Positions 84-32,806 of a DNA stretch of 64,000 nt are shown here, one piece after another. The first letter of the stretch is position 1, and every line of letters begins with the position of its first letter. Origin of the DNA: an uncultured Anaerolineae bacterium (lineage in GTDB: Bacteria > Chloroflexota > Anaerolineae > Promineifilales > Promineifilaceae); the NCBI GenBank assembly GCA_937943625.1, contig CALEAD010000006.1, positions 1 through 64,000 on the forward strand. Reading direction: 5' to 3'. Made by a program: the position numbers and the translations under genes. Under the pieces are notes generated by a model. It was not told the DNA's origin. It worked only from the letters and a program-made list of their open reading frames with translations, and did no database searches.

Positions 84-329
84 TTAGTTCATGGCATTGG
101 CCAGCCAGGTCATCACTTCCGATTCCTTAGGGATGCGGCCAGCAGCTACCAGCTTTTCGTTGATGACCAGGCCGGGCGTGGCCAGGATGTTGTAGGCCAT
201 CATTTGCCTATAGTCGGTTATCTTGATGATTTCGGCCTCTACACCCATATTGGCAATGGCGCTCCTGGCAATGGATTCTACTTTGTGGCAGTTGGAACAA
301 CCAGGACCTAAAACTTTGATCGTTAACAT
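84..329 (-). CDS. Small thioredoxin-like redox protein (MTH895 type)
   Basis: An 81-residue protein of the small-disulfide (MTH895/TM0996) thioredoxin family. The redox motif GCSNCHKV sits at residues 10-17 and the cis-proline turn is ATPGLVI near residue 52. It is shorter than classical thioredoxin (about 105 residues) and has no signal peptide, so it should be cytoplasmic. It is the last gene of a leftward operon, 13 bp after an OsmC gene. It probably shuttles electrons or sulfur for the OsmC and DGC proteins upstream; the partner is inferred only from position. A second small thioredoxin of this kind (CPKC) is at 26734-26970. Confidence 0.88.
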   Translation of the reverse strand: MLTIKVLGPGCSNCHKVESIARSAIANMGVEAEIIKITDYRQMMAYNILATPGLVINEKLVAAGRIPKESEVMTWLANAMN

Positions 330-342
330 GTCTCGTTTCCTT

Positions 343-795
343 TTATTCTATGATTTCAATGGTTGGTTCTACAATGATGTCTGATTTCACCGAGTTGGCG
401 ACCAGACTGTACTTTTGCGCCGATTGTAGCCCCTTTTTGATGCGAGCTTCAATCACGGCCGTTTTCTCCCCATTGGCGGCCACGCGAATATGCGGCCAGA
501 GCTTGACCTGGGTGAAAATTTCCGTGCGGTCGAGTTCGATGAGCTTGGTGCCCTCGGCGCGGCATTCGTAGCTTTGCAGGTCCAACTTGTAGCGCTCGGT
601 GGCCCAAATGAACATCATCATCACGCAGGTGTTGACGGCGGCGACGAAGGCATCTTCAGGCGTGAAGACGCCGGGGTGGCCCTGGGCGTCGGGTGGAGCG
701 GAGAAGGGCATTTCTGGCCCGTTGCCCATGATGAGGTGACCCCAGTGTTCCCCTTTCCACTGCACGGTGGTGTGGTAAACGGCCGTTCTGCTCAT
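343..795 (-). CDS. OsmC family protein
   Basis: A 150-residue OsmC/Ohr-fold protein. The family uses paired cysteines to reduce organic hydroperoxides or handle reactive sulfur. The expected pair is present: one Cys in AAVNTCVMMMF and one in LQSYECRAEG about 25 residues later. Start chosen at the ATG at 795 because it overlaps the upstream stop as ATGA; the frame stays open 7 codons further, but that would extend into the upstream gene. This is one of three OsmC paralogs in the window (others at 24788 and 25251). The true substrate is unknown. Confidence 0.85.
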   Translation of the reverse strand: MSRTAVYHTTVQWKGEHWGHLIMGNGPEMPFSAPPDAQGHPGVFTPEDAFVAAVNTCVMMMFIWATERYKLDLQSYECRAEGTKLIELDRTEIFTQVKLWPHIRVAANGEKTAVIEARIKKGLQSAQKYSLVANSVKSDIIVEPTIEIIE

Positions 796-1529
796 GCCGC
801 CACTCCCTCCGCACAAAACAGGGCATATTCCTGTGCCAGCACTTCCTGGTACTGGCTCTCCATGGCGTCGGGCACGTCGTTGTAAATTTTGACTTGCGCC
901 AGCAGCTCAGCGGCTGTTTCCGGCGACGGCCGTTTGCCCATCTGCTTAAACTGCGCCAATAGCGGCGGCAGGGCAATCAGCGTCACCTGCTGGCCGTTGA
1001 CCTGCACCGTCTGGACGGGAATGCCGGAACCGCAGGCGCAAGAGGCGGCTGATTTTGCTACTGCCTCTTCTTGCATAACCGGTTCGCTTTCCAGGAAGCG
1101 TCCTTCGCGGCGACTCCACTTTTTATCCAGCAGGGTATCTACCAGGTCGGCGACGGTAGCGGCCGTTTCCGCCACCGCCTGCTGCCCCGCCTCATTCAAG
1201 CGGCGCAAGCCCGCCACCGGGCCAATGCCGCGTTCGGCGACAATGTCCGTGACCACCACGCTGGCAGCCGGTTTGCCAGAATACTGCTCGGTGGCGCGGG
1301 CAGCGCAGCGCAGCGCGCACCCATCCACGGCAATGGTGGGATAGAAGCGGGCAAACGCGCGGTCCCCTTCGCCACCGGCCAAAAAGAGCGGCAGACAAAT
1401 GGTCACCGTCTCATTGGGGCGCAATTCTTCCAACACTTTCAATGCGGCCAGGCGCGTCACCGTGCCTTCAGCCATTTCTTCACCGGAACAGGCGACAATG
1501 CCGACTTTCTTTTGCGGTAAGTTTGGCAT
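792..1529 (-). CDS. DGC-domain zinc-binding protein with C-terminal extension
   Basis: A 245-residue protein. Residues 1-125 match the putative zinc-binding DGC family: an early Cys in VGIVACSGEE, then the signature VDGCALRC. After a linker with CACG, the last 75 residues form a separate region (VQTVQVNGQQVTLIALPP ... KIYNDVPDAMESQY) that I do not recognise. The next gene upstream encodes a DGC domain without this tail, so the two look like paralogs, one extended. The RBS GAGG lies 8 nt before the ATG. Function is unknown; the family is often found beside sulfur, selenium or metal redox genes. Confidence 0.78.
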   Translation of the reverse strand: MPNLPQKKVGIVACSGEEMAEGTVTRLAALKVLEELRPNETVTICLPLFLAGGEGDRAFARFYPTIAVDGCALRCAARATEQYSGKPAASVVVTDIVAERGIGPVAGLRRLNEAGQQAVAETAATVADLVDTLLDKKWSRREGRFLESEPVMQEEAVAKSAASCACGSGIPVQTVQVNGQQVTLIALPPLLAQFKQMGKRPSPETAAELLAQVKIYNDVPDAMESQYQEVLAQEYALFCAEGVAA

Positions 1530-1550: not shown

Positions 1551-1994
1551 TTAGAAACAGGGCGCGGAGCTTCTTAATTTCTCATCTCCCGTCTCCACTT
1601 TCCCATTCAATTTATCTACCACTGCAGCCACTTCCTCAGCCAGGGCGTGGGCCAACTGCTGCCCGCCTTCATTCAACTCGGCGATACCTTGTGGCTTTAG
1701 CTTGCGGTTGCGGCGGAACACGTCCAACACGGCAAAGTCTTGCGCTATGGTACCGCCGCTTTCCTGCACCATTTTGGTGGCGCAGGCCAGTTTACAGCCA
1801 TCAATGGTAATGGCCGGACTGGCGGCGACGGCGGCACGGGCGTTTTCTTCGCCCAGCACCAGCATGGAGAGGGGCACAAGCTGTGCGGATTCAGGACGCA
1901 GCTCTTCAATGACTTCGTAGGCAGCCTCGCGGCTAACCGTGCCGTAGGTTTTGCCAATACCGCTGCACGGCACAATCACGATTTTTTCATTCAT
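1551..1994 (-). CDS. DGC-domain zinc-binding protein
   Basis: A 147-residue single-domain DGC protein. It has the early Cys in IVPCSGIGK, the signature IDGCKLACATKM near residue 83, and a C-terminal Cys (SAPCF) that could complete a metal site. It aligns along its length with the first half of the neighbour at 792-1529, sharing IDGC/VDGC and ELNEGGQQ/RLNEAGQQ. The ATG at 1994 overlaps the stop of the lipoyl protein gene as ATGA, indicating translational coupling. The molecular function of the family is not established. Confidence 0.8.
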   Translation of the reverse strand: MNEKIVIVPCSGIGKTYGTVSREAAYEVIEELRPESAQLVPLSMLVLGEENARAAVAASPAITIDGCKLACATKMVQESGGTIAQDFAVLDVFRRNRKLKPQGIAELNEGGQQLAHALAEEVAAVVDKLNGKVETGDEKLRSSAPCF

Positions 1995-2440
1995 AGGTTT
2001 TCTGCCTCCTCTTGCGCCTGGACTTTCATGTGCTCAAAGTATACCTCCGGCGTCATCAGATTGGCTTGATCGGCGGCCCAATTGGCTGCGGCGATGACGG
2101 CCAGCCAGCCCTCACCGTATGGGTCCTGGTTGATTACCTCCGCTTCCAGCTCCAGTTTTTCGTTGACCGCAGCAATCGTGCCGCTGACGGGGCAGGGCAA
2201 TTCGACGTCTACTTTGATGGTTTCGATGGTGGCAAATTCGTCGTTGGCAGCAACGGCCGTACCCACATCCTTCACCTCCGCAAAAGCCACATCCCCGTTA
2301 CGCTGCTGGAAAAAGTCTGACACGCCAACGGTCACCTGGTTACCTTCCGCTTTGGCCCAGACCCCTTCGGGGTTATAGAAACGGTCCGTCGCGACTTTGA
2401 AGGTAAATTTATCCAGGGTGTATTCTAAAAATTCGGCCAT
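1991..2440 (-). CDS. GcvH-like lipoyl-carrier protein
   Basis: A 149-residue homolog of glycine cleavage H protein. The lipoyl lysine is predicted at Lys76 in ATIETIKVDVELPCPVSG, followed by INQDPYGEGWL, as in GcvH. Start taken at the ATG at 2440 because GGAGG lies 9 nt upstream; the in-frame ATG at 2449 has GGAGG touching it. It is the first gene of the operon and directly follows a promoter with two inverted repeats. GcvPA/GcvPB are 11 kb away, and the operon partners are DGC, OsmC and thioredoxin proteins. A sulfur-carrier role like that of lipoate-binding proteins in sHdr pathways is therefore as plausible as glycine cleavage. Confidence 0.85.
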   Translation of the reverse strand: MAEFLEYTLDKFTFKVATDRFYNPEGVWAKAEGNQVTVGVSDFFQQRNGDVAFAEVKDVGTAVAANDEFATIETIKVDVELPCPVSGTIAAVNEKLELEAEVINQDPYGEGWLAVIAAANWAADQANLMTPEVYFEHMKVQAQEEAENL

Positions 2441-2478: not shown

Positions 2479-2536
2479 TTCAATGTACATTGAATTATAG
2501 TTTACTCAATACCTATCCTATTAGTGACAAATGTCA
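2479..2536 (-). promoter_or_regulatory. Promoter A with two inverted-repeat operators
   Basis: On the minus strand there is a perfect -10 hexamer TATAAT at 2499-2494, overlapping by one base the perfect 16 bp palindrome TTCAATGTACATTGAA (2479-2494) that spans the likely start point. Upstream, TGACA-AA-TGTCA (2525-2536) is centred about 43 bp from the inferred start, a class II activator position. There is no good -35 hexamer, which fits activator dependence. The same two elements recur at 32643-32710. Protein identities are inferred: an ArsR-type repressor downstream and a CRP/FNR-type activator upstream. Confidence 0.6.
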
Positions 2537-3652: not shown

Positions 3653-4852
3653 TCACGCTTTTGGTTTTACCGGTAGCCAGCGCAGCCCCAGGCCATATAG
3701 CAGCGCGCCCAGGCCAGCGATGAACGTTACCAATAACCACTCGGCTGTATTGGGCACGTAGTCATAGCGCATCTTGGGATCGACGTAGGACAGCGCCAGC
3801 CCTTCCAGTTCGGGCGTTGCCAGCACAGGAATGACCACATTGAGCGTCACGGCCACAAATGTAATCACGCTCAGGGTGGCGGCCACACCAACCCAGGCAG
3901 GTTTATCGGGCTGATTGAACAAAATCAGAATGGGTACGACGACGCCCAGCAAAATATGAACAATCCAGAAACTCCACCAGAATGGCCCGGTCAGCATCAG
4001 CATCAGCGCCTCGGCGCGGGCCGGGCTGCCCTGATAGAGAAAGGTCAGGCCAATGATGCTGGCAGCGAAGGCGCCGCCCAGCAGCAGCCAGGCTGTCAAC
4101 CGGGCCAGCCGACCTACGACCTGGCGGTATTCGGCCGCTTTCTTGTCTGGCCAAAACAGGACTGCCAGGAGAGCCAGCAAGCCGCTGCCAGCCGCCAGAG
4201 AGGAAATCAGGAACATCAGGGGCAGCGACGAGGTGTTCCACAAAGGCCGGGCGGTAACCACGCCAAAAACAGAACCGCTCACGATAATGAGCGCCAACCC
4301 CATTGGCAGGCTGAGATAGGCCAATCCTTTGAGGATCCGCTCTTTCGGCCCTTCAGCAACTGAGAGCCAGCCCATGACCAGGAGCAATTCAGCCAGCAAC
4401 ACGACCAGGTAAAGGGTGTGCAGCCAGACCATCCAGGTGATCATGGAGCCAAAGTCGGGATAAATGTAGACGTGCCAGAAACGAAGCGGCCGTCCCAGGT
4501 CCAGCAACACGATGAGCAAAGCAGCAAACAAAATCACCAGCCCGGTGAAAAGCACAATGGGCTTCAGCCGGTTCAGAGCTTTAAAACCAACCAGGTAGAC
4601 CAGGGTGGTGAAAACCAGCAAGCTGCCCACTTCCAGCCAGACCAGATAGTCGTAAAAGCCGACCCACAAGCCCCAGGGAACGTAGCTGTTTAACGATGTG
4701 GGGAAAAGCCCGTAGGCCACCCGCTGCCACATGCCCCAGGCGCCTATCAACAGCAGGATGAGACCGGCAATCCACACCAGGTCGGTTGCCTGCCACTTAA
4801 ACGAAGAGCGAGCCGGCGGCGTTTCTTGATTTGATATGGGTAGTTGAGCCAT
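3653..4852 (-). CDS. NrfD/PsrC-type membrane anchor, quinone-reacting subunit
   Basis: A 399-residue polytopic protein with about nine or ten hydrophobic helices starting near residue 27 (DLVWIAGLILLLIGAW). It fits the NrfD/PsrC/TtrC family, which exchanges electrons between the quinone pool and a four-cluster FeS subunit. The conserved early loop SYVPWGLWVGFYDYLVWLEV is present near residues 56-75. It follows the TorD gene directly in the order FeS subunit, catalytic subunit, TorD, NrfD. The electron direction (reductase or oxidase) cannot be read from the sequence. Confidence 0.88.
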   Translation of the reverse strand: MAQLPISNQETPPARSSFKWQATDLVWIAGLILLLIGAWGMWQRVAYGLFPTSLNSYVPWGLWVGFYDYLVWLEVGSLLVFTTLVYLVGFKALNRLKPIVLFTGLVILFAALLIVLLDLGRPLRFWHVYIYPDFGSMITWMVWLHTLYLVVLLAELLLVMGWLSVAEGPKERILKGLAYLSLPMGLALIIVSGSVFGVVTARPLWNTSSLPLMFLISSLAAGSGLLALLAVLFWPDKKAAEYRQVVGRLARLTAWLLLGGAFAASIIGLTFLYQGSPARAEALMLMLTGPFWWSFWIVHILLGVVVPILILFNQPDKPAWVGVAATLSVITFVAVTLNVVIPVLATPELEGLALSYVDPKMRYDYVPNTAEWLLVTFIAGLGALLYGLGLRWLPVKPKA

Positions 4853-4853
4853 T

Positions 4854-5504
4854 TTAGCCTCCTAAAACACGAGTTTCTAGAATTGTTGCCAACCAGTCCA
4901 GGTCTGCCTGCACGGCCGTTTGCGTAAAACGCGCCAGTCCGGCAAAGAAGGGTTCGTCAGCCGCTTTCGCCATTGCGCCGCAAAACTGTGGCAACCAGGG
5001 CATTACCTGCTGGCGCAAGAAATCATAGCTGGCCGCCAAAGCAGCTGCCCCATTTGCCTCATCGGCCAGAGCCAGTTGGCCCAGGTAGGCTAGAAAACCA
5101 AATTCCAAAGCCAGGTGGTCATCTGGCAGGCGCGTTTCGCCGTCAGGCAACGCTTGCCAGGTCAGGTATTGGCGACGCGCCTCTGTTGCTGATGGTCCCA
5201 TCAACTGCCCACCGTGGAGATAGAACGAGGCGTAAGGAGGCGCCGGCGTACGGCCTGGCCCCTCTAGCAGGCGTGTCATCTCCACGTTGAGCGCTGCCGT
5301 ACGGCCGGTCAGCGACCCGTCTGGGTGACCATTGGCCGGTTTCAGGCCAGCGTGCATCAGCGCCAGGCCGTCGCGCAGCGACGATGTAGGCAGCAGCGTC
5401 AGGGCCATGATCTGCTCCAGCAGGGAATCTGACAACGGGTAGGTATACAGGGCGCGCAGCAGGCTGTAAAGCCCAATGCGTTCAGCCAAATCTTGCTGGT
5501 CCAT
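4854..5504 (-). CDS. TorD-family molybdoenzyme maturation chaperone
   Basis: A 216-residue all-alpha protein of the TorD/DmsD/NarJ superfamily. These chaperones bind the Tat signal of a molybdoenzyme and hold it until the cofactor is inserted. Family landmarks are PPYASFYL near residue 90 and the signature LPDDHLALEFGFLAYL near residue 127. It lies between the catalytic subunit and NrfD genes with spacers of a few bases, so it almost certainly serves the enzyme encoded by the preceding gene. Confidence 0.87.
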   Translation of the reverse strand: MDQQDLAERIGLYSLLRALYTYPLSDSLLEQIMALTLLPTSSLRDGLALMHAGLKPANGHPDGSLTGRTAALNVEMTRLLEGPGRTPAPPYASFYLHGGQLMGPSATEARRQYLTWQALPDGETRLPDDHLALEFGFLAYLGQLALADEANGAAALAASYDFLRQQVMPWLPQFCGAMAKAADEPFFAGLARFTQTAVQADLDWLATILETRVLGG

Positions 5505-5505
5505 C

Positions 5506-8334
5506 TTACACCTTCTTGACCTTGACGATCATATCGCAATAAACAGGTTGTCCCATGACCGGCGAAAGACCTTCGGGGTCCACAATGGCATTGTGGTTGG
5601 GCGACACGTCGCGGAAATCATACGTCTTGCCCAGACCAGGGCTGAAACGACCGCCGCCGCCCAACGGCACGCGCAATACCCCCGGCATGATCGTTTCCAC
5701 CAGGTTTACCTTGCCGCGCGTGCTGTGACCCAATGGCGTTGACAGTTCCACCAGATCGCCGCTTTGTAACCCCATCCCTTCGCCCTCGCTGCGATTCATC
5801 TGGATGACGCCAATACACCACGTTCCCTTGTCAATACGCACCTGGCGACCAGTCGGCGCCGGTCCATCCGGGCCAATGATAATTTCTTCAACGATCCGCT
5901 CTTCGTTGTATGGCATCCACAGGTCTTCAGTGGGAATACGCCCCAGCCAGTCTACCATTTGTGTGCCGGACATGGCGTGGTGGATACGTCCCGAAACAAC
6001 CAGGAAGGGATACTCATCCTTGTATTGGGCGTAATCAGGATTGGTGTAAGGGTTCCAAATTGTCTCAAACCAATAGAAGCTCTTGGGGAATTTGTCCCAG
6101 CCTAGTTTGCGAATGCTGGGCGGCGCTTCGCCAGCTTCTTCGATAAGCTTGTTGTATTTGGCGTATCGCCCTTTGCGCTGTGTTTCACCGTTGCTTTCCA
6201 TTTCGAAGTCCCAGACGAACTCTACTTTCTTGCTGTCGGTTTGCAGTACGCCGCCATCGTGGAAACGGTACCAGCTCATGGGCCAGACAGCCACGCCGTT
6301 ATGGTCGCGGAACCACTGCGCCGTGACTGGCTCGCCGCGCACCTCTTTCTTTTCGTCATCTACCTCAACCCGGCCAGCCTCCAGGGAATCGGGGGTACCA
6401 ATCAGGCGGTAGTTGACTGGATACTGGGGATAGGGAAGCGGAACGCCGGCGTTGGCCCGCCCTGGAGAAACTTTGAGAGCCTCATTCCAAAAATCTTCTT
6501 CGGTAGGATATTTTTCCCAAAATTCAGCCGGATCAATGTCGGGATCGCCCTTTTCGTGCAGCTTACGCGCCAGAGCTATCATAAAGTCGTACTGGGATTT
6601 AGATTCGTACATCTTATCAATGACGAAGTCGCGCAGGTAAATGAGGGGATGGCTGGGATAGATATCAGCCAGGCTCATCCGTTCCAGATAGCTGCACTCT
6701 GGCAGTACCACATCAGCGTAAAGGCCCGTCTCCAGGAAAGGCGTGTCAATATAGACCACCAGGTCTACAGCGTAATCGTTGCCCTTCTTGGCGGTGAGCG
6801 CATCTACCCAGGTTTGGGTATTAGAGCCGGTAATGACCGGGTTGCCGGTGCGCAGGAAGAAGGCGCGCAGAGGATATTCATGGCCGCGGAACGGTCCATA
6901 GCGGAGCTTAACCCCTTCAATGAAGCGGCGGGGATAATCGCCCACCACGTCATCCCAACCGGCCGGCCAGTCGCCGTACCAGTCCATGTGCAGTTGTTCT
7001 TGCTTGCCGGTTACGTCCACGCCATTGATGCGGCGCGTTACATCACGGCCGTTGAAGAAGCCGCCGCCAGCCCGGCCGCCCTTGCTGCTCTTGACGATCT
7101 CGGTGTCAATTGCGCCGCCGGGCACTTCCATGTTGCCGGTAATAACGTTGAGGGCAGTGCCAATAATGGCCGCCACGTAGCCATTGTAATGGTGGCCGAT
7201 GCCGTTCATGCCCCAAACCCAGGCCGCCGGCTTGGTGATGCCAAAGGTATGGGCCAGTTCGGCGATGGTCTTGGCGTCAATCAAGGTGCGCTGCGCCGCC
7301 CATTCCAGGGTGAAGTAATCCAGGCCGTTGATGGGGTCTTTCTTATTCCACCAGCTTCTAAAGTCCGCCTCAAACTCTTCCCAACCCTGGCTGTACTCCA
7401 GGAACGACCAATCAATGTAGCGGCGGAAGGGATCGTCATCACGGTGGTTTTCCAGGATGTAGCGCAAAACGGCTGCAAACAGATCTGGGTCCGTGCCAGG
7501 ACGAATGGGAATCCATTGGTCGGCTTTCGTGGCCGTGTTGGAGAGGGCGGGGTCAATGACCACAATGCGCGCCCCGGCCAGCTTGGCCTCCACCGTGCCC
7601 CGCGATTCATACACAATGCGGGTGGCGGTAAACGGGTTCCAGCCAGCGTAAACGATGAGCCGGGTGCGATATTTATAACTGTTTTTCAGACTGCCATCTG
7701 GCTGCCGCACCAGCACCGGGCGCATGATGTCCGGCTCGACACGCTTGCCGCCGAACATCAGCTTAGGTCCATGGCGGCGCGGCGTGTCGCATATGGAGCC
7801 ATGTTCCACCGTGTGCGGCGTGCCAAAGGCGCGAAACAGGTAATAGTAGGGGTCGCGGTCGGTCACGTCGCCAGCATCCATGATGACCGACTCTGGTCCA
7901 TGCTCGCGCTTAATTTGTAGCAGTTTATCCGCAATATAGTCCAGGGCTTCGTCCCAGGAGGCGCGGCGGAACTTGCCTTCACCCCGCTCGCCCACGCGAA
8001 TCATGGGGTATTTGATCCGGTTGGCGTTATAGGTCATCTGTAAACCGGACGCCCCTTTGGCGCAGACAACGCCAGAGTTAAGGGGTGCGTGATTATTGCC
8101 ATAAATGGCCGAAGCCACGCCATTTTCCACGCGCACGGCCAGGCCGCACTCGGCCGGGCACATGACGCAGGCAGTGTAAACTGTCTTGCTCTGCAACTGA
8201 TTCCGGGCGTCCTGGGCGCTGATCATCTTGAAGCCGCTGCCCAGCGCACCGTAGGTCGCCAGACCGCCGGCCGTGATGGCCCCCGCCTTGAGGAAATCAC
8301 GCCGCGAGAGGGTAAAATTTGTCTCTTTACTCAT
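5506..8334 (-). CDS. Tat-exported molybdopterin oxidoreductase, catalytic subunit (PsrA/TtrA/ArrA-like)
   Basis: A 942-residue member of the complex iron-sulfur molybdoenzyme family. A twin-arginine signal SRRDFLK is at residues 10-16. The N-terminal [4Fe-4S] site is C56-x2-C59-x3-C63-x27-C91, and Cys182 in HGSICDTPRRHG is the likely molybdenum ligand, which points to the thiosulfate/polysulfide, tetrathionate or arsenate branch rather than the Ser or Asp branches. Export places it outside the membrane, docked to the FeS and NrfD subunits. The RBS AGGAGG precedes the ATG. Substrate cannot be set from sequence alone; the PhnD-like sensor suggests a sulfur or arsenic oxyanion. Confidence 0.88.
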   Translation of the reverse strand: MSKETNFTLSRRDFLKAGAITAGGLATYGALGSGFKMISAQDARNQLQSKTVYTACVMCPAECGLAVRVENGVASAIYGNNHAPLNSGVVCAKGASGLQMTYNANRIKYPMIRVGERGEGKFRRASWDEALDYIADKLLQIKREHGPESVIMDAGDVTDRDPYYYLFRAFGTPHTVEHGSICDTPRRHGPKLMFGGKRVEPDIMRPVLVRQPDGSLKNSYKYRTRLIVYAGWNPFTATRIVYESRGTVEAKLAGARIVVIDPALSNTATKADQWIPIRPGTDPDLFAAVLRYILENHRDDDPFRRYIDWSFLEYSQGWEEFEADFRSWWNKKDPINGLDYFTLEWAAQRTLIDAKTIAELAHTFGITKPAAWVWGMNGIGHHYNGYVAAIIGTALNVITGNMEVPGGAIDTEIVKSSKGGRAGGGFFNGRDVTRRINGVDVTGKQEQLHMDWYGDWPAGWDDVVGDYPRRFIEGVKLRYGPFRGHEYPLRAFFLRTGNPVITGSNTQTWVDALTAKKGNDYAVDLVVYIDTPFLETGLYADVVLPECSYLERMSLADIYPSHPLIYLRDFVIDKMYESKSQYDFMIALARKLHEKGDPDIDPAEFWEKYPTEEDFWNEALKVSPGRANAGVPLPYPQYPVNYRLIGTPDSLEAGRVEVDDEKKEVRGEPVTAQWFRDHNGVAVWPMSWYRFHDGGVLQTDSKKVEFVWDFEMESNGETQRKGRYAKYNKLIEEAGEAPPSIRKLGWDKFPKSFYWFETIWNPYTNPDYAQYKDEYPFLVVSGRIHHAMSGTQMVDWLGRIPTEDLWMPYNEERIVEEIIIGPDGPAPTGRQVRIDKGTWCIGVIQMNRSEGEGMGLQSGDLVELSTPLGHSTRGKVNLVETIMPGVLRVPLGGGGRFSPGLGKTYDFRDVSPNHNAIVDPEGLSPVMGQPVYCDMIVKVKKV

Positions 8335-8345
8335 GGTTATACCTC

Positions 8346-9254
8346 CTAGACGAGATAGAAGACCTTGGGGTCGGTGCCCAACTCTTCTTTAAGCCGCATG
8401 ATGTTTGGCTGGGCGATCAGCTCTGAAACCAGGCTCCTGGGATCATTCATGTCGCCAAAGTACGTGGCCCGCCCCATGCAGCTTAGGACACAGGCCGGCA
8501 GGTCGCCCCGTTCAATGCGGTGGATGCAAAAGTGACATTTGCGCACGTTGCCAATGGGCGATCCACCCCTGTCTCGCAGGTAGTTTTTGCCGTACTCAGG
8601 GGTGGGCAGCAGCTCATAAGGCTGGCGTTCGCCCCCTTCGGAATCGCCATAAAATGTGCCAAAATCGTAATAGCGGGCCGAATAGGGGCAGGCGGTCATG
8701 CAGTAGCGGCAGCCGATGCAGCGATCGTAGTCAATGACGGTGATGCCATCGGCGCGTTTCCAGGTGGCCTTAACCGGGCAAACTGGGGTGCAAGGGGGAT
8801 TGTCACATTGCAGACAGGGGCGGGGTACAAAGCGCCGGGCGACGTTGGGAAACGTGCCCTGGGTTTCGGTCATAACCGGGCGATAGGTGACGCCTGGCGG
8901 CAGTTTGTTTTCGGTGACGCAGGCAATGTTACAGCCACTGCAGCCGGTGCATTTACGCAGGTCAATCACCATACCCCACTTGCGCTGATCCATGGGCTTT
9001 TGTAAGGCTCGCCGCAGGTCATCCATCATGCGCTCTACCGGGTGTTCGCCTTCAATCGCTTCTGGCAGGTTCAGCAGTGGCACCAGGTTACCTGCTTGCG
9101 TCGCTGGCGCGGCGTGAAGCGGTTCGACTTTGCCGGCTACTGCCGGGGCCACCAGCCCAGCAAAAACGGCGCTGGCAAACTTGCCCAGGAAGGAGCGACG
9201 AGAAACCTCATCACCGTGGAGCGCCTCCTTTAATAAATCATCTTCTTGGCTCAT
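8346..9254 (-). CDS. Four-cluster FeS electron-transfer subunit with Tat signal (PsrB/TtrB-like)
   Basis: A 302-residue subunit with a twin-arginine signal SRRSFLGK at residues 18-25. Four cysteine sets are visible: [35 protein letters not shown] and CHFC...CVLSC, as in DmsB/PsrB/TtrB. It passes electrons between NrfD and the catalytic subunit. Start chosen at 9254 because GAGGAG lies 8 nt upstream and this gives a normal Tat N-region; an in-frame ATG at 9344 would add 30 residues with no clear RBS. It is the first gene of the enzyme operon, 247 bp beyond the response regulator. Confidence 0.87.
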
Positions 9255-9501
9255 AGCAATTTCTCCTCTTAGTCGTTGATCGTGGACAGCCTTGATTTGT
9301 TGCTGCACCTCAACTGGAGTGAAAGGTGTATAGCTTATTGCCATACCACAGCCTGGCGTCTTACCTCATGCTTGCATGGCCATTAAAACATGGAGCAAAG
9401 ATCAACCAGTCTGCCTTCCCATTATTTTAGTTTGCAGATATGAGGCGGATAACTGGGTAAGTGCCGGGGGGATACCTGGGGAAATTCCTAGTATGGGAAG
9501 C

Positions 9502-10140
9502 TTAAATCAAGCTGCGCTGCATGGCAAAGCGGGTGAGATCGGCGCGGTTTTCCAGGCTGAGTTTGCGCATGATGTTGGCCCGGTGGAAGTCAACTGTTTT
9601 GACGCTGACAAAAAGGGTTTCGGCCGTTTCCTGATAGGTATACCCTTTGGCCAACAGTACTAGAACTTCGCGCTCTCGCTCTGTCAGGCTGTCGTAAGGG
9701 TCGCGGGGCTGCCCCTGTTCCTGGCGGTGCATATCGTCTAGCAAAACGCTGCTAACGCCTGGGTCCAGATAGGTGCCGCCAGCGTGAACGATGCGAATGG
9801 CGCGAATGAGCGCGTCGTCTGGCGCGCGCTTGAGGACGTAACCAGCCGCCCCCACACGCATGGCCGGCATGACGTACTCACGATTTTCGTGTTGGGTTAG
9901 TATCAGAACGCGTGTATTAGGGCAGGCGTAGACAATTTCGCGCGTGGCGGCCAGACCATCCATGCCTGGAAGACCAATGTCCATCAGGATAACGTCTGGT
10001 TGGTAGGCTTTGGCCTGACGCAGCGCATCCAGGCCATCGGCTGCCTCCGCCACGACCTGCATATCATCTTGAAATTGCAGTAAAGCGCGAATACCGGCGC
10101 GCAATATGGCATGATCGTCAACCAACAAAACGCGAATCAT
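9502..10140 (-). CDS. NarL/FixJ-family response regulator
   Basis: A 212-residue regulator. The receiver domain has acidic pair D8-D9, phospho-acceptor Asp54 ([11 protein letters not shown]) and Lys in YVLKR. The C-terminal LuxR-type helix-turn-helix contains [16 protein letters not shown] and [17 protein letters not shown]. The ATG at 10140 overlaps the kinase stop as ATGA. The obvious target is the molybdoenzyme promoter that follows. TtrR of the tetrathionate system is also LuxR-type, whereas AioR of arsenite oxidase is a sigma-54 activator, so this slightly favours a Ttr-like reading. Confidence 0.9.
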
Positions 10141-11981
10141 GATATGTTCCTTAAAGGTAGGACTGCTGTAAGGCAAGCGCCGCCGCCTGGTTTACTCTCC
10201 ACGCGCATCTGGCCGCCTAGCAGAGCAGCTCTTTCTTGCATGCCCAACAAGCCTAATCCTTGCCGCTGGCCATGCCGGTTTAGGGCATCGGGCAGCACAA
10301 AGCCAATGCCATCGTCACATACCATAATCTGTATCTGCTCTGGCGCGAACTGAACGGCAAGGTGCACCTGATGCGCATCGGCGTGGCGGCTGATGTTGGT
10401 GATGGCTTCCTGACCAATACGGAATAAGGCTGTCTCCAGTTCGGCGGGCAGCCGCTGCGCGTCGCCAGATACAGACAGGTTAACCTGGACTCCCTGGGGT
10501 TCAAGGCGCTCCTGCGCGTACCAGCGCAAAGCTGGGATTAAACCCAGATCATCGAGCAAAGACGGCCGTAAATCGTAAATGATCGTTTGCAGCTCTTTAA
10601 CCGTATCGCTGGCCGAGATTTTCAGGCGTTCGATCAGCTCTGGCGCACTCTCCGGCTCCTTTGCTAAAGCAGCGTTCACGGCATTCAGACCAAAAACGAG
10701 GGCGTTCAGGGATTGGCCGGTGGCATCGTGCAGTTCGCGGGCGATGCGCTGCCGTTCATCTTCCTGGGCACGTATTGCCCGCGCCAATAATTCGCCGCGC
10801 AGCTGCTCTTTTTGCTGCAACTCCTGCCAAAGACGGGCATTTTCTGCTTCGCGCACTTTTCGTTCGGTCACATCGCGGGTGAACCAGGCCAGGGCGCGTT
10901 TGCCCTGGTAATCCACCAGGGTGCCAGCCGTCTCCAGGACATATTCCTCGCCGTGCCGGTTAACCAGGACCAGCTCATCGGAAATGGTGGGCATGGTCCT
11001 GGCGCGGATCGTTTGCCAGATGTGACGGGCATTTTCCAGTGAATCGGGATGGAGGATGGTGGCCGCATTAGCGCCGATCAGCTCATCTGGCTGGAAGCCG
11101 GCCAGGCGGGCGAAGGTATCGTTGACAAAGAGAAATTCGCCCTCTTGAGGCCCGTCGTCGCAAATCAAAGCAATACCCTCGCCAACCGCGCTGGCTGCCG
11201 TCAACAAATCCCGGTAACCACTTTCTGAGGTCTGCAATTGTTGAATGGCCTGGGCAATTTCGGCTGCCATCTGGTTGAATGCCAGGGCCAGGTCGCCTAT
11301 TTCGTCGCCGGGTGGCAGGTCAATGCGCTCCTCCAGGCTGCCCTGGCCCAGCCGCTGCACCCGATAAGTCAATTCGGCCAGCGGACGGGTGGCCAGATGA
11401 CTGAAAACGTAGGTGATAACGGCCGCTGCCAGACAGCCAACGGCCGTTAACAAAATAACGATAGTGGTGATCCGCGCCTGTTCCACGGCAATTCTGGCCT
11501 GGCTCACGCCGACGTGAATTTCGGCCGGCAAGCCGTCAAAGGGTTGGTAGACAAAGTGGTGGACCAACCCTTGCTCGGTACGCAACAAAACGCCGGAATC
11601 TGCCAGGGAATTATGCGCTGATAACAGATACGTCAGGTCAGCCGGAAAACCCCCTGGAAAGGTATGTACCACCGGCGTACCTGGCCCAAAGGCAAACGCA
11701 TAAACAATGTCAGGGTTATTGTTTATGGCGCCATCTAGCGTTTCGCGCACCGTGACCAGATTTCCTTCAACCAGAGCGTTGGCCAGGCTCTCGCCCAGGG
11801 CTAAGGTGAGGGCTTCGCCATACCGCACCAGCTCGTTCGTCAGGCTGCGGGACAACACCACGTTCACCGCTACCGTGGTGATCAACCCGGCGGCGATGAC
11901 GATGACCACCATTGCGAGCGTGATTCTACTTGTCAGGCGGCGGGGCAATTTTCGGTCTAGCCAGATCAACCAGGCAGGCAT
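10137..11981 (-). CDS. Membrane histidine kinase (HAMP, PAS, HisKA_3)
   Basis: A 614-residue sensor kinase. The order is: TM1 near residues 18-40 ([20 protein letters not shown]), an extracytoplasmic domain of about 125 residues, TM2 near 175-195, HAMP, PAS (near 250-370, ending [10 protein letters not shown]), HisKA_3 with phospho-His in [15 protein letters not shown], and an ATPase domain with [13 protein letters not shown]. Start taken at the ATG at 11981, one base after the stop of the PhnD-like gene, with GGAG upstream; the frame extends 47 codons further but overlaps that gene. It forms a sensor set with the flanking lipoprotein and regulator. Confidence 0.9.
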
Positions 11982-11982
11982 G

Positions 11983-12924
11983 TTATGGCTCCAGAAGGCC
12001 GACTGTTCGGGCAACGTGGCGCAGCGTTTCGTAATCTTCATCGCTGGCCAGCACAAAGCCCAGGGGCATCTCGGAACGCTCCCATTGGTACAGGGCGGCC
12101 GCATCTCGCCCGGCTGGGTCAAGGGTCAACAAGGCCTGTTGGATGAGCGCTACTGTTTTTTCCGGCACGTCTGGCCCGGCAATGATGCCACTGGCGGGAT
12201 AAAAACCTGAGTAGGCCAACACGCGAACCAGGCCGCGCTGCGCCAACTCCCTGGCCAAGGTATCTTGTAAGGCGCCGGCTTCATAACGGCCGCTGGCCAC
12301 GGCGTTAGCCGCCGCCGTGTGCGAACCGCTAAAGCTGTAGGCGCGCAATTCTTCCAGGGCAACACCTGCCTCCTGCAACATCAAGCGAGGAATCAGGTGA
12401 CCCTGGGTAGAATTGGGCGCGCCGAAAACAAACGTGTGCTGGCGCAAATCGGCGACGTTTTGCAAGGGGCTGTCGGCCGGCACGACAATGGCGGCGCGGT
12501 AAGTGTCGTTGCCGTCGCCGTTACGGCCACGCACCAGAATGCGCGCGCCGCATAAATCATGGGCTTGCAAGTAAGAGACCGTGCCTACAGCGGCCAAGGC
12601 AACGTCGCCGTCGCACAGATCATCCACAATGGTACGGCCGTCGTTGTGCGAAACGTAGACGCTGATCGGCAAGCCAGTTTGGTGCGTCAGCCAATTCGCC
12701 AGAGAAGCGATCTGGCGCACGTCTTCTTTTGGTTCCAGGCGGCGGTCGAAACCAATTTGCCAACCGGCCGCCTGACTTGAGGCAGCTGGATAGAGATCGC
12801 TTTCTATCAGGTTGCCTGCCAGACTGACGCTCAGCGACGGCGCACCAGATTGACAGGCAACCAGCAACAAAAGTAATAGAAACGGCAGCATCAAGCCAGC
12901 CAAACCATTTCTGGGCATTCCCAT
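11983..12924 (-). CDS. PhnD-like periplasmic binding lipoprotein, probable sensor component
   Basis: A 313-residue solute-binding protein with a signal peptide ending in the lipobox LLVACQSG, so it should be lipid-anchored outside the membrane. The body matches the PhnD/phosphonate-binding fold: [49 protein letters not shown] and [21 protein letters not shown]. No transporter genes accompany it; it is coupled to a histidine kinase. TtrS carries such a domain fused at its N-terminus, and AioX/ArxX are separate PhnD-like sensors. It probably binds the substrate oxyanion. Start may be 12924 or 12918. Confidence 0.85.
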
Positions 12925-12938
12925 CTTCTGTGGTTTAG

Positions 12939-12967
12939 CCCTGGGTGATTTACCCAGCACCCCAGGG
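12939..12967 (-). terminator. Hairpin between gcvPB and the sensor operon
   Basis: CCCTGG...CCAGGG flanks an inner GGGT...ACCC pairing (12939-12967), downstream of the gcvPB stop and just upstream of the lipoprotein start. It lacks a strong T-run. It could be a weak terminator or a leader structure. Confidence 0.3.
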
Positions 12968-13038
12968 CGGTAGGAATTACTCACCGATAGACACCAATGC
13001 CCAATTGTATCACGGCCGTACGGGGCGGCAGTTGGCAA

Positions 13039-14523
13039 TTAGGCTATTTCCGGGATCGCCCGGCACAGCACCAGCTTCTTGGCCGCGTACACCTCGTCCA
13101 CCCGCCCCACTGGCGCGTTGTGCGGCGCGCCGCGCAGCAGTTCCGGCTCTTCCCGCGCCTCCTGACGGATGGCAATCATCGCCTCAGCGTATCGGTCCAG
13201 CGTCTGTAAAGATTCTGTTTCCGTTGGTTCCACCATTAGCGCCTCGTGAACCTTGAGGGTGGTGTGCGGCGTGCCCAGCGGAAAGTAGTTGGAAGGTGGG
13301 TGGAAGCCGTAATCAATCAGCCGCTTGGAGATGTCTAAAGCGCGAATTCCTTCCTCGTCCAACTTCCCCTCGGCCACAAACTCGTGCATACAGATGCGGT
13401 CGTAAGGGATTTCATACGCCTGGCCGATTTTGACGCGCAGGTAGTTGGCGTTAAGCACGGCGTTTTCGGAGACGGCGCGTAGTTCGGCCGGACCGTGGGC
13501 GCGCAGGTAAGCGTAGGCGCGCACCAGAATGCCAAAGTTGCCGTGAAAGGCTTTCAAACGGCCGATGCTCTGCGCGGGCATGGCGTAGACGTAAGACGGC
13601 GGGGAGGTTGTCTCGTCCAGGGCGACGATTGGCCCCGGCAGGAAGGGGGCTAATGCTTCACCGGCGGCTACCGGCCCCGCGCCCGGCCCGCCGCCGCCGT
13701 GCGGTGTGGAGAAGGTTTTGTGCAGATTGTAGTGCATGACGTCGAAGCCCAGTTCGGCCAGTTTGACGATACCCATCAGGGCGTTCATGTTGGCGCCGTC
13801 CGCGTACATCAGGCCGCCGCATTCGTGTACCAGCCGCGCTACCTCCAGGATTTGTTCCTCGAACAAGCCCAGCGTGTTGGGGATAGTGATCATCATCGCC
13901 GCCACGTGGGGTCCCAGGTTGGCTTTCAGCGCATCCATCTCCACGTTGCCACGGCCGTCGGTGGGCAGTTCCACCACGCGGAATCCGGCCATACTACTGG
14001 TGGCGGGGTTGGTACCGTGGGCGGAGTCGGGCAGGAGAATTGTGTCGCGTGCCGTGTCGCCCCGGCTGCGATGGTAGGCGCGCACCATGAGAATGCCGGT
14101 GAACTCACCCTGCGCCCCGGCGGCCGGCTGCAAGCTGGTGGCCGTAAAGCCGTTTAGCTCGCTCAGCCAGGTTTGCAAGTTGAACAGCATTTCCAGGCTG
14201 CCCTGCACGGTGGCGGCGTCTTGCAAAGGATGGGGTTCCAGAAATCCGGGCAGGTGAGCCATCGCTTCGTTCAGGCGCGGGTTGTACTTCATGGTGCAGG
14301 AGCCGAGGGGGTACATGGTGGTGTCTACGCCGAAGTTTTGCCGCGAGAGGCGGGTGTAATGGCGCACGACGTCGGCCTCACTGACTTCGGGTAGATTTAG
14401 CTCGTCGCGCAGCAGGCCAGCGGGCAAGGGTGTGGCGGGGAATGGGGCTGTGGGCATGGTTACTCCTGTCCTCCCCGGCGCGCCCAGTTCGTAAATCAGC
14501 GGTTCGTACAGTGGATCGTTCAT
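13039..14523 (-). CDS. gcvPB: Glycine dehydrogenase (decarboxylating) subunit 2
   Basis: A 494-residue C-terminal half of the P-protein, of the two-subunit type found in many anaerobes and Gram-positives. The pyridoxal-phosphate lysine is in MHYNLHKTFSTPHGGGGPG, near residue 267. With GcvPA it decarboxylates glycine and passes the aminomethyl group to the lipoyl arm of GcvH. Its ATG (14523) overlaps the gcvPA stop as ATGA. No gcvT is in the window; the only H-like protein is at 1991-2440. Confidence 0.94.
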   Translation of the reverse strand: MNDPLYEPLIYELGAPGRTGVTMPTAPFPATPLPAGLLRDELNLPEVSEADVVRHYTRLSRQNFGVDTTMYPLGSCTMKYNPRLNEAMAHLPGFLEPHPLQDAATVQGSLEMLFNLQTWLSELNGFTATSLQPAAGAQGEFTGILMVRAYHRSRGDTARDTILLPDSAHGTNPATSSMAGFRVVELPTDGRGNVEMDALKANLGPHVAAMMITIPNTLGLFEEQILEVARLVHECGGLMYADGANMNALMGIVKLAELGFDVMHYNLHKTFSTPHGGGGPGAGPVAAGEALAPFLPGPIVALDETTSPPSYVYAMPAQSIGRLKAFHGNFGILVRAYAYLRAHGPAELRAVSENAVLNANYLRVKIGQAYEIPYDRICMHEFVAEGKLDEEGIRALDISKRLIDYGFHPPSNYFPLGTPHTTLKVHEALMVEPTETESLQTLDRYAEAMIAIRQEAREEPELLRGAPHNAPVGRVDEVYAAKKLVLCRAIPEIA

Positions 14524-15863
14524 GATCTAATCTCCTTCAGCGCCGCTACCAGCGCGTCCATTTCCGCAGTGGTGGTCATTTCTGTGGCACAAAGCAGCAG
14601 GTGATGGTCTAAATGGGGATAATCCTGGCCGAGATCGTAGCCGCCGAGGATGTTGTATTGCGCCAACAGGGCTTGTTTCATCTCTGCCGCCGGGCGGGGA
14701 CATTCGACGACGAATTCCTGGAAGAACGGCCGTTCCCGCCAAACGTGGTAGCCAGGCAAGGCGTCAATTTGGTCCGCCAGGTGCTGGGTGTTTTGGTAAC
14801 AGAGTTCGGCCGTTTGCCGCAATCCTTGTTTACCCATCAAGGCCATGTAAATCCCGGCGGCCAAAGCCATCAAGCCCTGGTTAGAGCAGATGTTGGAGGT
14901 GGCTTTGGCGCGGCGGATGTGCTGCTCGCGGGTAGAGAGGGTGAGGGTGTAACTGCGACGGCCGTCGGCGTCAATCGTCTCACCCACCAGCCGGCCAGAC
15001 ATTTTACGCACATGTTTGTCGCGGGTGCAGAAGTAGCCCAGGTACGGGCCGCCGAAGCTCAGCGGCAGCCCCAGCGACTGCCCTTCACCGCAGACAATAT
15101 CCGCGCCGTAGTCGCCGGGCGGCCGGAACAGCGCCAGGTGTAGCGGTTCGGCCACCACGCAGAGCAGCGCCCCGGCGGCGTGGACGCGTTCGGCCAGACC
15201 GTCCAGCGATTCTAGCTGGCCGAAGAAGTTGGGCGTTTGCACGATGACCAGGGCGGTCTCTTCGTTCAGGAAGGCCAGGGCGTCAGCCAGCGAGCCGCCG
15301 GGATCGGCGTCGCCCACGATTTCCAGCCCCATGCCCTGGGTGTAGGTGCGGGTCACTTGCCGGTATTGGGGATGTACGGTGGGGGCAATGACGACGCGCT
15401 TCCGTTTGGGCAGCACGTTGACGGCCATGATCACGGCTTCGGCAACGGCCGTTGCCCCGTCATAGTGGCTGGCGTTAGATACATCCATCCCGGTCAGCGC
15501 CGCCATCATCGTCTGGTACTCAAAGATGGCTTGCAGCGTGCCCTGACTCACTTCCGGCTGGTAGGGAGTGTAGGCGGTGAGGAATTCGCCGCGGCTGATC
15601 AGATAATCCAGGGCTGGCGGCGTATAGCGGCGGTACGCGCCCGCGCCCAAGAAGCTGGTGATGTCGTTACCGGGGACACGGTTTTGCGCCGCCAGGGCAG
15701 CCATCTCCCAGCTGATTTCCATCTGGCTCAGGCCGGGCGGCAGGCTCAACTGCGGAAAGCGGACCTGCGCCGGAACATCGGCGAACAGGTCCGCAATGGT
15801 GGCAACGCCAATCGTTTGCAGCATTTGCTGCCGTTCTGCGTCGGTGTGGGGATAGTAGGTCAT
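14520..15863 (-). CDS. gcvPA: Glycine dehydrogenase (decarboxylating) subunit 1
   Basis: A 447-residue N-terminal half of the glycine decarboxylase P-protein, full length for the split type. Landmarks are FLGAGAYRRYTP near residue 54, TAYTPYQPEVSQGTLQ near residue 95, and GEGQSLGLPLSFGGPYLGYF near residue 258. It forms an alpha2-beta2 enzyme with GcvPB, translated from the next, overlapping gene. It starts 22 bp after the hypB stop, so the order hypB, gcvPA, gcvPB could be one transcript. Confidence 0.94.
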   Translation of the reverse strand: MTYYPHTDAERQQMLQTIGVATIADLFADVPAQVRFPQLSLPPGLSQMEISWEMAALAAQNRVPGNDITSFLGAGAYRRYTPPALDYLISRGEFLTAYTPYQPEVSQGTLQAIFEYQTMMAALTGMDVSNASHYDGATAVAEAVIMAVNVLPKRKRVVIAPTVHPQYRQVTRTYTQGMGLEIVGDADPGGSLADALAFLNEETALVIVQTPNFFGQLESLDGLAERVHAAGALLCVVAEPLHLALFRPPGDYGADIVCGEGQSLGLPLSFGGPYLGYFCTRDKHVRKMSGRLVGETIDADGRRSYTLTLSTREQHIRRAKATSNICSNQGLMALAAGIYMALMGKQGLRQTAELCYQNTQHLADQIDALPGYHVWRERPFFQEFVVECPRPAAEMKQALLAQYNILGGYDLGQDYPHLDHHLLLCATEMTTTAEMDALVAALKEIRS

Positions 15864-16599: not shown

Positions 16600-16927
16600 A
16601 TTGTTTCTCCTGTGAGTTGTTTCTGGGGTGAATGTCGCTTTGCTGCACCCGAATAAATCGGCGCGTGATTTCCTGACAGCATTCGGCTACACATTCCTGG
16701 TTAGCCCGGTAAAACACCCATTTGCCCTCCTGTCGCGTCGTCACCAGATTAGCCTGGCACAATACAGCCAGGTGGTGGGAAATGGTGGGCTGCTGCTGGT
16801 CAAAATGATCACAAAGATCGCTGACGCTCATTTTCCCGCTTTGCAGCAGTTGTAAAATCTGCTGCCGCGTTTCGTCGGCCAGCGCCCGCAGAAAATCGTC
16901 AAAGTCGCAACAGCCGGTCTGGCTCAT
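16592..16927 (-). CDS. ArsR/SmtB-family repressor, cysteine-rich
   Basis: A 111-residue winged-helix protein. The HTH reads SVSDLCDHFDQQQPTISHHLAVL. Cysteines at the N-terminus (QTGCCDF) and in the last helix (QECVAECCQEI) give several possible metal or thiol ligands. Start at ATG 16927, overlapping the upstream stop as ATGA. It overlaps hypB downstream, so it probably controls nickel or other metal handling of that operon. It is distinct from the second ArsR protein at 32192-32608, with different cysteine positions. Confidence 0.86.
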   Translation of the reverse strand: MSQTGCCDFDDFLRALADETRQQILQLLQSGKMSVSDLCDHFDQQQPTISHHLAVLCQANLVTTRQEGKWVFYRANQECVAECCQEITRRFIRVQQSDIHPRNNSQEKQYV

Positions 16928-17552: not shown

Positions 17553-17584
17553 CCGTTTCATCTCCTGTTAGCGAACAAATTGTC

Positions 17585-31440: not shown

Positions 31441-32195
31441 TATGGTATGCTCCTCGAATAATTTTTGTCACGTTTGACGTCGCTGAGTGCAGCAAATAAA
31501 TCTGTTTCCCATTCATGCCCGTTTACCGATACTTGTGGCCGGGCCAGGCGAAAGAGTTCATGACAGGCCATCTTTTGCGCTTTGCTTTCCGGGTCGCCCT
31601 GGAAGGGCGGGTTCTGGCTCTGGTGCTGCTGCGCGGCGCGCACTTTTTGCACCAGGTAGTTGCCCACGTCAATGAAGGCGACCGGCCCACCAACTGCCTC
31701 CGCCGGCGGCGGGACGCCACAACCTTGCCAGGTAGCCTCTGAAGGGGCGATGTAGTAGAGGCGCAACGGCCGTTCCACTTCCTGTGCGTATTGGTCAAAG
31801 GCAACCGTCACCCAGCGGTGAATGGCCAGGTGGTCAGGATGGCCAGAAATGCCGTCCGGACCAAAGGTGACAACGACATCAGGCGACGATTTGCGCATCA
31901 AAGCTAGCAGGCGAGCCGCACCAACGTTGTCTGGGATGTCGGCCAATGTGCCATCCACATAGTCCAGAAAGGTGAGATACTGCACGCCCAGTTCAGCACA
32001 AGCGCGACGCAGTTCAGCTTCACGCAGTACGGCCGTTTCTGTTGCGCTCTTGCCGGGAATCCCCCGTTCGCCGCGCGTGGCCGTTACCAGATGAATCAGC
32101 TTGCCTTCAGCGACCGCTTTAGCCAGCGTGCCACCCATAGGGAAAGTTTCATCATCGGGGTGGGCCAGGATGGTCATGAGAGTAGGAGGCGTCAT
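31440..32195 (-). CDS. PIG-L family zinc deacetylase (BshB/MshB-like)
   Basis: A 251-residue LmbE/PIG-L hydrolase. The zinc motif AHPDDE is at residues 11-16 (ILAHPDDETFPMGG), and the third ligand region is GISGHPDHLAIHRW. Family members deacetylate GlcNAc conjugates; BshB and MshB make the low-molecular-weight thiols bacillithiol and mycothiol. A thiol role here is inferred from the surrounding genes. Start at ATG 32195, overlapping the ArsR stop as ATGA; the 6 codons upstream (from 32213) would overlap ArsR. Confidence 0.88.
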   Translation of the reverse strand: MTPPTLMTILAHPDDETFPMGGTLAKAVAEGKLIHLVTATRGERGIPGKSATETAVLREAELRRACAELGVQYLTFLDYVDGTLADIPDNVGAARLLALMRKSSPDVVVTFGPDGISGHPDHLAIHRWVTVAFDQYAQEVERPLRLYYIAPSEATWQGCGVPPPAEAVGGPVAFIDVGNYLVQKVRAAQQHQSQNPPFQGDPESKAQKMACHELFRLARPQVSVNGHEWETDLFAALSDVKRDKNYSRSIP

Positions 32196-32608
32196 ATGGT
32201 TGTGGTCTCCCACACAAAATTTGCCGCCGGATTATTACTACCCTTGGCGGCTACTTCCGGGCCACACAGGCGCGGCTGTAAAGCGGCGCGGTCTGGGTCC
32301 AGAAACGTACTCAGCCATTGATGGATCAAGGCCAACACGACCACATCCACTTGATAGTAAATCCAACGGCCGTCTACAGAGTCACGTCGGTCTTGCACCA
32401 AACCAACCTCACGCAGCACCCGCAAGTGGTGGGAAAGGAGATTAGCGGGCAACCCCAATTCCTCGGTCAACCAGCCACTGCACGATGTCCCACGCAGCAA
32501 GGCAGCAAAAATGCGCAGGCGATTTGGATCAGCCAGTGCCTTGAGGACAGGCACAATGATCTCCGGTATGTCTACGTTATCTGCCATTTCTTTCTGCATA
32601 TCTGCCAC
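32192..32608 (-). CDS. ArsR-family repressor heading the thiol/Fe-S operon
   Basis: A 138-residue winged-helix regulator: LKALADPNRLRIFAALL, then TSCSGWLTEELGLPANLLSHHLRVLREVGLV, and a beta-hairpin (DRRDSVDGRWIYYQV). The classical arsenic site ELCVCDL is reduced to one Cys (TSCSGWL), and a second Cys lies near the C-terminus (PRLCGPE), a two-cysteine arrangement that recalls persulfide sensors more than metal sensors (inference). GTG start with GGAGG 11 nt upstream. Promoter B lies directly upstream, so autoregulation is likely. Confidence 0.85.
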   Translation of the reverse strand: MADMQKEMADNVDIPEIIVPVLKALADPNRLRIFAALLRGTSCSGWLTEELGLPANLLSHHLRVLREVGLVQDRRDSVDGRWIYYQVDVVVLALIHQWLSTFLDPDRAALQPRLCGPEVAAKGSNNPAANFVWETTTI

Positions 32609-32642: not shown

Positions 32643-32710
32643 TTCAACGACCATTGAATCATTGTCTGAATTTTACTCTGTTACGCAGCCTAAAGTAGTG
32701 ACGTTCGTCA
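32643..32710 (-). promoter_or_regulatory. Promoter B with the same two operators as promoter A
   Basis: TTCAACGACCATTGAA (32643-32658) keeps the TTCAA-N6-TTGAA arms of promoter A, and TGACGTTCGTCA (32699-32710) keeps TGAC-N4-GTCA, flanked in both promoters by TAGTGAC...GTCATACAA. A -10 candidate TAAAAT (32675-32670, minus strand) puts the upstream site near -41.5. The two elements are 53 bp apart, against 43 bp in promoter A, a difference of about one helical turn. Confidence 0.6.
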
Positions 32711-32806
32711 TACAAAGAGGTGAAATATGTAATAAAATTCAATGGGGGTTGAAATATTTGGGTATAATACGGCGAAGCTACCAACTGGAAATCAGCGTCT
32801 GCCGTG

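Follow-up and report, generated by a model that had tools for sequence, protein, structure and literature searches.

An Operon Headed by a GcvH-like Gene

The 64,000-nucleotide stretch of DNA that we analysed (the window) begins with five co-directional, tightly spaced genes on its reverse strand, in the order GcvHx, DGC, DGC, OsmC, thioredoxin. GcvHx is the name used here for the GcvH-like protein encoded by the first of them. Stop and start codons overlap by 4 bases at 1991–1994 and at 792–795, and the ATG of GcvHx at 2440 is preceded by GGAGG. The initial annotation was right to place the gene at the head of a DGC/OsmC/thioredoxin operon. The window opens on the first base of contig C6, so genes past the thioredoxin are out of view. 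The features discussed below are:

1991..2440 (-), GcvHx, predicted lipoyl carrier of H-protein fold with lysine K76 in an ETIK motif (from PF01597, fold and clade)
1551..1994 (-), DGC1, DGC-domain protein with invariant PCSGIGK and DGCxxxC cysteines (PF08859, 53.4 bits)
792..1529 (-), DGC2, second DGC-domain protein, with a C-terminal extension (CxCGSGIP) (PF08859, 61.6 bits)
343..795 (-), OsmC-like protein with invariant C64, C85 and Glu54 (PF02566, 40.4 bits)
84..329 (-), MTH895/ArsE-type thioredoxin-like protein with a CxxC motif, the last operon gene before the contig end (PF13192, 90.9 bits)
2479..2499 (-), TATAAT (-10) overlapped by the palindrome TTCAATGTACATTGAA, putative ArsR-family operator (from upstream motif counts)
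2525..2536 (-), palindrome TGACATTTGTCA near -40, putative activator site (recurs upstream of GcvHx in relatives)
32643..32753 (-), second copy of the promoter elements, with two TTCAA-N6-TTGAA palindromes around TGACGAACGTCA
32192..32608 (-), ArsR-family regulator gene (ORF), candidate regulator, heading a PIG-L/ArsP-like/TauE operon

Sequence, Fold and Phylogeny of GcvHx

The 149-residue ORF matches Pfam GCV_H (PF01597) with 106.9 bits against a cut-off of 22.2. Its AlphaFold model (mean pLDDT 92.3) has the H-protein fold, with a TM-score of 0.94 against the T. thermophilus H-protein 1onl, and GcvHx shares with solved H proteins the lipoyl-lysine hairpin and about 30–36% identity. It falls short of the curated NCBIfam GcvH models, scoring 91.6 with TIGR00527 (cut-off 115.85) and 113.8 with PRK01202 (cut-off 117), and scores 47.4 with NF045810, the 'GcvH-related protein' model, whose cut-off is 150. 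The lipoyl-accepting lysine K76 is kept in 56 of 56 aligned GcvHx relatives, and would be lipoylated. The window protein has a single cysteine, beside the lipoyl site; relatives have serine or alanine there, and a functional role for it was rejected on that ground.

The relatives that we compared, 82 in number, fall into three groups. A careful tree of 53 gave support of 100/99 for GcvHx, 99/96 for LbpA-like proteins and 63/84 for canonical GcvH. An AU test rejected placing the window protein within canonical GcvH (p = 0.0126) and also joining it to LbpA (p = 0.0141). On the 144 columns used, the separateness of GcvHx is backed by good evidence, the branching order not. Each group has its own signature at the lipoyl site: ET[IMV]K in GcvHx, ESVK in canonical GcvH and ESGK(W) in LbpA. 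GcvHx differs further from GcvH in a DKFxF N-terminal extension and in the loss of the Glu before Trp (HEW), where it has V, L or I. LbpA is defined by two conserved cysteines near the N and C termini (PMC6067878). The LbpA-like proteins of genomes G016 and G029 have both of them; GcvHx has neither. Taken with the gene order described below, these features make it very probable that GcvHx is a separate clade with a conserved operon. The GcvH-L of SirTM/macrodomain operons (5a35) is likewise a GcvH-like protein from a stress operon, but its similarity to GcvHx is weak (19% identity), and neither a sirtuin nor a macrodomain gene stood out among the GcvHx neighbours that we read.

Cysteine Proteins of the Operon

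In DGC1, C10, C67 and C71 are 100% conserved in about 50 relatives, and in DGC2 the same holds for C14, C45, C71, C75 and C164 across the aligned relatives. Neither a DGC profile search of the PDB nor a fold search of it with DGC2 (E ≤ 0.001) returned a match, and no DGC relatives were found in the plasmid collection searched.

The OsmC-like protein, whose residues are numbered on a 157-residue ORF starting at 816, carries E54 ten residues before C64, which in an alignment to 2d7v is the peroxidatic Cys and Glu arrangement of Ohr/OsmC proteins. At the position of the Ohr resolving cysteine (Cys125), alignment to 2d7v and 2onf shows KYS instead, and the second invariant cysteine, C85, stands away from that position. 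The N-terminal loop, corresponding to the region of the Ohr catalytic Arg19, aligns unreliably. Lacking the resolving cysteine, the protein is of doubtful peroxidase chemistry. The thioredoxin-like protein passes TIGR00412 (MTH895/ArsE) with 90.5 bits against a cut-off of 62, and its C11 and C14 are 100% conserved in the aligned relatives.

Promoter Elements and ArsR-family Regulators

Ahead of GcvHx, at 2536–2479, TGAC-N4-GTCA is followed by a TTCAA-N6-TTGAA palindrome. The same two-element arrangement stands at 32710–32643, ahead of the ArsR-family gene at the head of the PIG-L/ArsP-like/TauE operon, and homologues of that gene lie near GcvHx in other genomes. A shared sulfur-type promoter had been proposed for the GcvHx operon; these palindromes bear out the sharing in part, and the sulfur type is not established. 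The exact palindrome has 10 sites in the whole 4.1-Mb genome, 3 of them within the window. Allowing up to one mismatch, TTCAA-N6-TTGAA was found upstream of 10 of 53 GcvHx genes, compared with 39 of the 2240 random control stretches, and the two elements recur in the same order and at similar spacing upstream of GcvHx in six loci (L055, L063, L064, L065, L066 and L067); because such copies come mostly from the window's relatives, this conservation is partly kinship. Many other loci have ArsR and Lpd genes preceding GcvHx and no such promoter of its own.

Many of the adjacent ArsR proteins have CVCHL together with a C-terminal CxCPxC, and a second ArsR type near GcvHx has a C-terminal CGPE-like motif. 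CVC motifs in the ArsR family are known from sensors of As, Cd and Pb.

Distribution and Gene Neighbourhoods

A GcvHx profile matched in 57 of the 396 genomes of the class, a slight overcount because the weakest of these matches include a few canonical GcvH proteins (L129, L130); outside the class it matched in G416, G420 and G722. The carrier assemblies that have names are from Anaerolineae, Ardenticatenia and other Chloroflexota. Conservation of the operon extends over many families within the class and, outside it, to G416, G420 and G722. We surveyed 56 GcvHx loci, among which three genomes contribute two loci each and related genomes are not independent. DGC is present in 54 of the 56, OsmC in 45, thioredoxin in 44 and an ArsR-family gene in 46.

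Two further neighbours are less frequent. An AhpD-like gene occurs in 13 of the 56 loci (there is none in the window) and Lpd in 7 (not in the window operon). Lpd lies directly upstream of GcvHx on the same strand in L095, L098, L103, L106 and L118, and tblastn shows it ending at GcvHx in L104 and L157; the L103 copy passes TIGR01350 with 515 bits (cut-off 408.8). The AhpD-like protein has the AhpD core domain above the cut-off, and its best structural match is 5dik, an AhpD structure. Its E62, C74, C77 and H81, invariant in 12 aligned rows, make up the Glu-x11-CxxC-x3-His active site.

Arsenic genes are a recurrent part of the neighbourhood, with ACR3 in 10 of the 56 loci, an ArsP-like gene in 10, LMW ArsC in 9, ArsA in 5 and ArsD in 5. 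Neighbouring copies exceed curated cut-offs for ACR3 (468.9 against 282.8 bits) and ArsD (110.5 against 90). Under stricter score limits, an ars effector (ACR3, ArsA, ArsD, ArsP or ArsC) was found in 21 of 56 GcvHx loci versus 0 of 16 controls, which were the other loci at hand from the same genomes, few and unmatched. The stretches read at the other 35 loci, many of them short, have no ars effector. TauE/SafE and ArsP-like permeases are also frequent neighbours. In the window's own genome no ACR3 gene scored over the cut-off, and no ars effector gene did so beside the window operon.

A radical SAM/SPASM gene lies near OsmC/Trx3 in about 15–17 of the 56 loci. One such protein (L057:5406–6659) and its relatives, recurrent in the GcvHx operon, have an AbrB-like start. 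A cysteine-rich, zinc-ribbon-like small protein is encoded between ArsR and Lpd/GcvHx in many relatives (12 related loci); its window counterpart, at 17283–17561, is near another ArsR gene (16592–17035) instead.

A Possible Lipoyl Thiol-Redox Relay

Lipoyl-dependent peroxidase systems (Lpd, lipoylated E2, AhpD, Ohr/OsmC) have partners of similar kinds. In published reports, lipoyl proteins with NADH reduce AhpD, and lipoylated proteins are required by Ohr and OsmC (PMC8945050; PMC5962072). Electrons are reported to flow there from the lipoyl group through AhpD to OsmC, with OsmC restored by way of AhpD in C. glutamicum (PMC8945050). In those systems, however, the carrier is a 2-oxoacid dehydrogenase E2, whereas here it would be a dedicated H-protein type in the operon; the OsmC protein here is without the Ohr resolving Cys, and DGC proteins are added.

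We propose, with confidence evenly divided for and against, that GcvHx is a lipoyl carrier of H-protein fold outside glycine cleavage that serves a dedicated, ArsR-controlled thiol-redox relay. An NADH-dependent Lpd, encoded next to the gene in some relatives and elsewhere in the window's own genome, would keep the lipoyl dithiol reduced. Reduced lipoyl-GcvHx would then act on the cysteine proteins of the same operon: the AhpD-like protein where present, the OsmC-like protein, the ArsE-type thioredoxin and the two DGC proteins. ArsR-family repressors would control the operon, and the agent that releases them would most likely be trivalent arsenic or something similarly reactive towards thiols. 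The data show the clade, the gene order and associations, and the cysteines and promoter elements that are conserved; we infer the lipoylation, the direction of electron flow, the order of partners and the inducing chemical; as the simplest model, the chain from NADH through Lpd and lipoyl-GcvHx to AhpD, OsmC, thioredoxin and DGC has roughly an even chance of being correct. Lipoylation itself is assumed, because the genome has no LipA match and only one lipoate-ligase-family gene.

Given its regulators and neighbours, a trivalent metalloid is the most probable stressor. Regulators and neighbours are also what the operon shares, in 21 of 56 loci, with ars operons (ArsR, ACR3, ArsA/ArsD, ArsC, ArsE-type thioredoxin), whereas the core of GcvHx, DGC and OsmC was not found described for ars operons in the literature searched. 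Arsenic as the main stressor is a tentative reading, somewhat short of an even chance, and sulfur species are possible stressors as well. Lipoyl dithiols are a classical target of arsenite poisoning, and a lipoyl protein beside arsenic genes thus poses a sharp, testable question.

It can also be suggested, with a little less than even confidence, that GcvHx represents a third functional branch of H proteins, a dedicated lipoyl redox carrier that is controlled by ArsR, has its own Lpd, AhpD, OsmC and DGC partners and serves to detoxify metalloids or to counter the thiol stress that they cause. If true, arsenic defence would gain a lipoyl chemistry that had not been attributed to it before, and the literature searched contains no description of a GcvHx-DGC-DGC-OsmC-thioredoxin operon. 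Few lipoate-dependent systems are known to us, and we know of only one well-shown role of GcvH relatives outside central carbon metabolism, that of LbpA in sHdr. A lipoyl carrier devoted to a stress operon would add to these systems, and it would place the uncharacterised DGC family in a biochemical setting.

The same genes could instead describe ligand transfer, in which the lipoyl dithiol carries As(III) or a persulfide that is passed among GcvHx, the DGC proteins and either an exporter or an enzyme of sulfur metabolism. In its favour, As(III) is bound by vicinal dithiols, the DGC proteins hold invariant cysteine sets, and arsenic efflux genes, TauE/SafE and ArsP-like permeases often adjoin GcvHx. 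We consider this unlikely, since the presence of Lpd and AhpD nearby favours electron transfer and the sole cysteine near K76 is unconserved. It is improbable that the operon matures a metalloenzyme, with the radical SAM/SPASM and DGC proteins modifying a target and lipoyl-GcvHx giving reductant or sulfur. The radical SAM gene lies near OsmC/Trx3 in 17 loci and its product is nearest to TIGR04317, a tungsten-oxidoreductase maturase (289.5 bits, below the cut-off of 380), but the gene is missing from most loci and from the visible part of the window operon, and no conserved target gene was seen.

Glycine Cleavage, Lipoate Genes and LbpA

The window also contains glycine cleavage genes. GcvPB and GcvPA lie at 13039–15863 (-), 10.6 kb from GcvHx with other genes between, in keeping with the initial annotation, and no gcvT or gcvP adjoins GcvHx. 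Given its H-protein fold, its lipoyl lysine and this distance, GcvHx might be a glycine cleavage H protein, perhaps for the split GcvPA/GcvPB, which has no gcvH beside it. We regard this as very improbable. The split P protein is the second in the genome, and a canonical gcvH on C7 (C7:233910–234263, 135.6 bits) stands directly ahead of a fused gcvP of ~1020 residues. In relatives L052, L129 and L130, split GcvP sits with a canonical ESVK gcvH. Among 40 GcvHx genomes probed with GcvPA, 12 have fused-type GcvP only, and G323 and G330 gave no GcvP match at E ≤ 1e-30 though the GcvHx operon is present; a role tied to the split GcvPA/GcvPB was rejected on these counts. Each of ten genomes of the family with GcvHx also has a second, canonical-type GcvH match.

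Classical GcvH membership was rejected on the scores below the NCBIfam GcvH cut-offs, the tree and the second gcvH: the AU test rejects the canonical position, and another gcvH does exist. The earlier view of a lipoyl-type protein outside glycine cleavage is thus supported, and a dedicated lipoyl carrier would caution annotators that a 'gcvH' without an adjoining gcvP or gcvT may not mean glycine cleavage. Within the genome (G000), the fused GcvP lies in the region C7:226000–242000 (L051), and gcvH adjoins the fused GcvP only, not the split one.

The search for related genes recovered, besides the gcvH on C7, three GCV_T-domain genes and one lipoate-ligase-family gene; no lipoate-ligase gene was seen in the window operon. 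One dihydrolipoamide dehydrogenase scored above the cut-off (569.3 bits). LipA (TIGR00510) had no match in the assembly, which is 94.6% complete, so that absences from it are weak. With gcvH and a ligase-family gene present, the LipA miss could mean that lipoate is scavenged, that a different lipoyl synthase makes it or that the assembly has a gap.

That GcvHx is an LbpA-type protein of sHdr-like sulfur oxidation, the kinship originally suggested, is highly improbable: it is, like LbpA, a GcvH-derived lipoyl protein with a non-glycine role and its own gene cluster, and genes of sulfur type (a Psr/Phs-like molybdoenzyme, TauE) occur in the wider window, but GcvHx has neither the paired N- and C-terminal cysteines nor ESGKW, no shdr or lipoate-ligase genes were seen to adjoin it, we recognised no sHdr cluster in its neighbourhood or elsewhere in the 94.6% complete genome, and the AU test separates it from LbpA, the LbpA-like genes of G016 and G029 with both cysteines and an Hdr context being another clade. 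LbpA membership was rejected on cysteines, context and AU test. From their lengths and neighbouring genes, we judged the CCG-domain matches in the genome to be hydrogenase-linked Hdr, GlcF-like and LutA-like genes. GcvHx may have a sulfur role other than sHdr/LbpA.

Neighbouring Modules and Related Loci

The genes at 3653–13038 encode NrfD, a TorD-like protein, a 942-residue Psr/Phs-like molybdoenzyme, an FeS protein, a response regulator, a kinase and a PhnD-like binding protein, and form an unassigned respiratory module with a three-component sensor. The molybdoenzyme was rejected as an ArrA/Arx arsenate enzyme, with 143 bits against 1600 for ArrA; its 241.6 bits against 694 for PhsA gave no assignment either. 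At L158, from another class, GcvHx-DGC-DGC-OsmC-Trx3 runs directly into PhnD-HK-RR-FeS-NrfD-MopB.

In L049 and L050 (G016 and G029), paired GcvH-like genes with both LbpA cysteines adjoin Hdr-like genes, and a neighbouring protein clusters with the lipoate-ligase family; these are probably sHdr/LbpA clusters in Chloroflexota. The 44-kb plasmid pACF1 of Acidithiobacillus ferrooxidans (L167) carries a GcvH-like gene at 787–1233, with neighbours encoding a thioredoxin, a hemerythrin, a DUF2249 protein, an Hdr-related Fe-S protein and a carboxymuconolactone decarboxylase.
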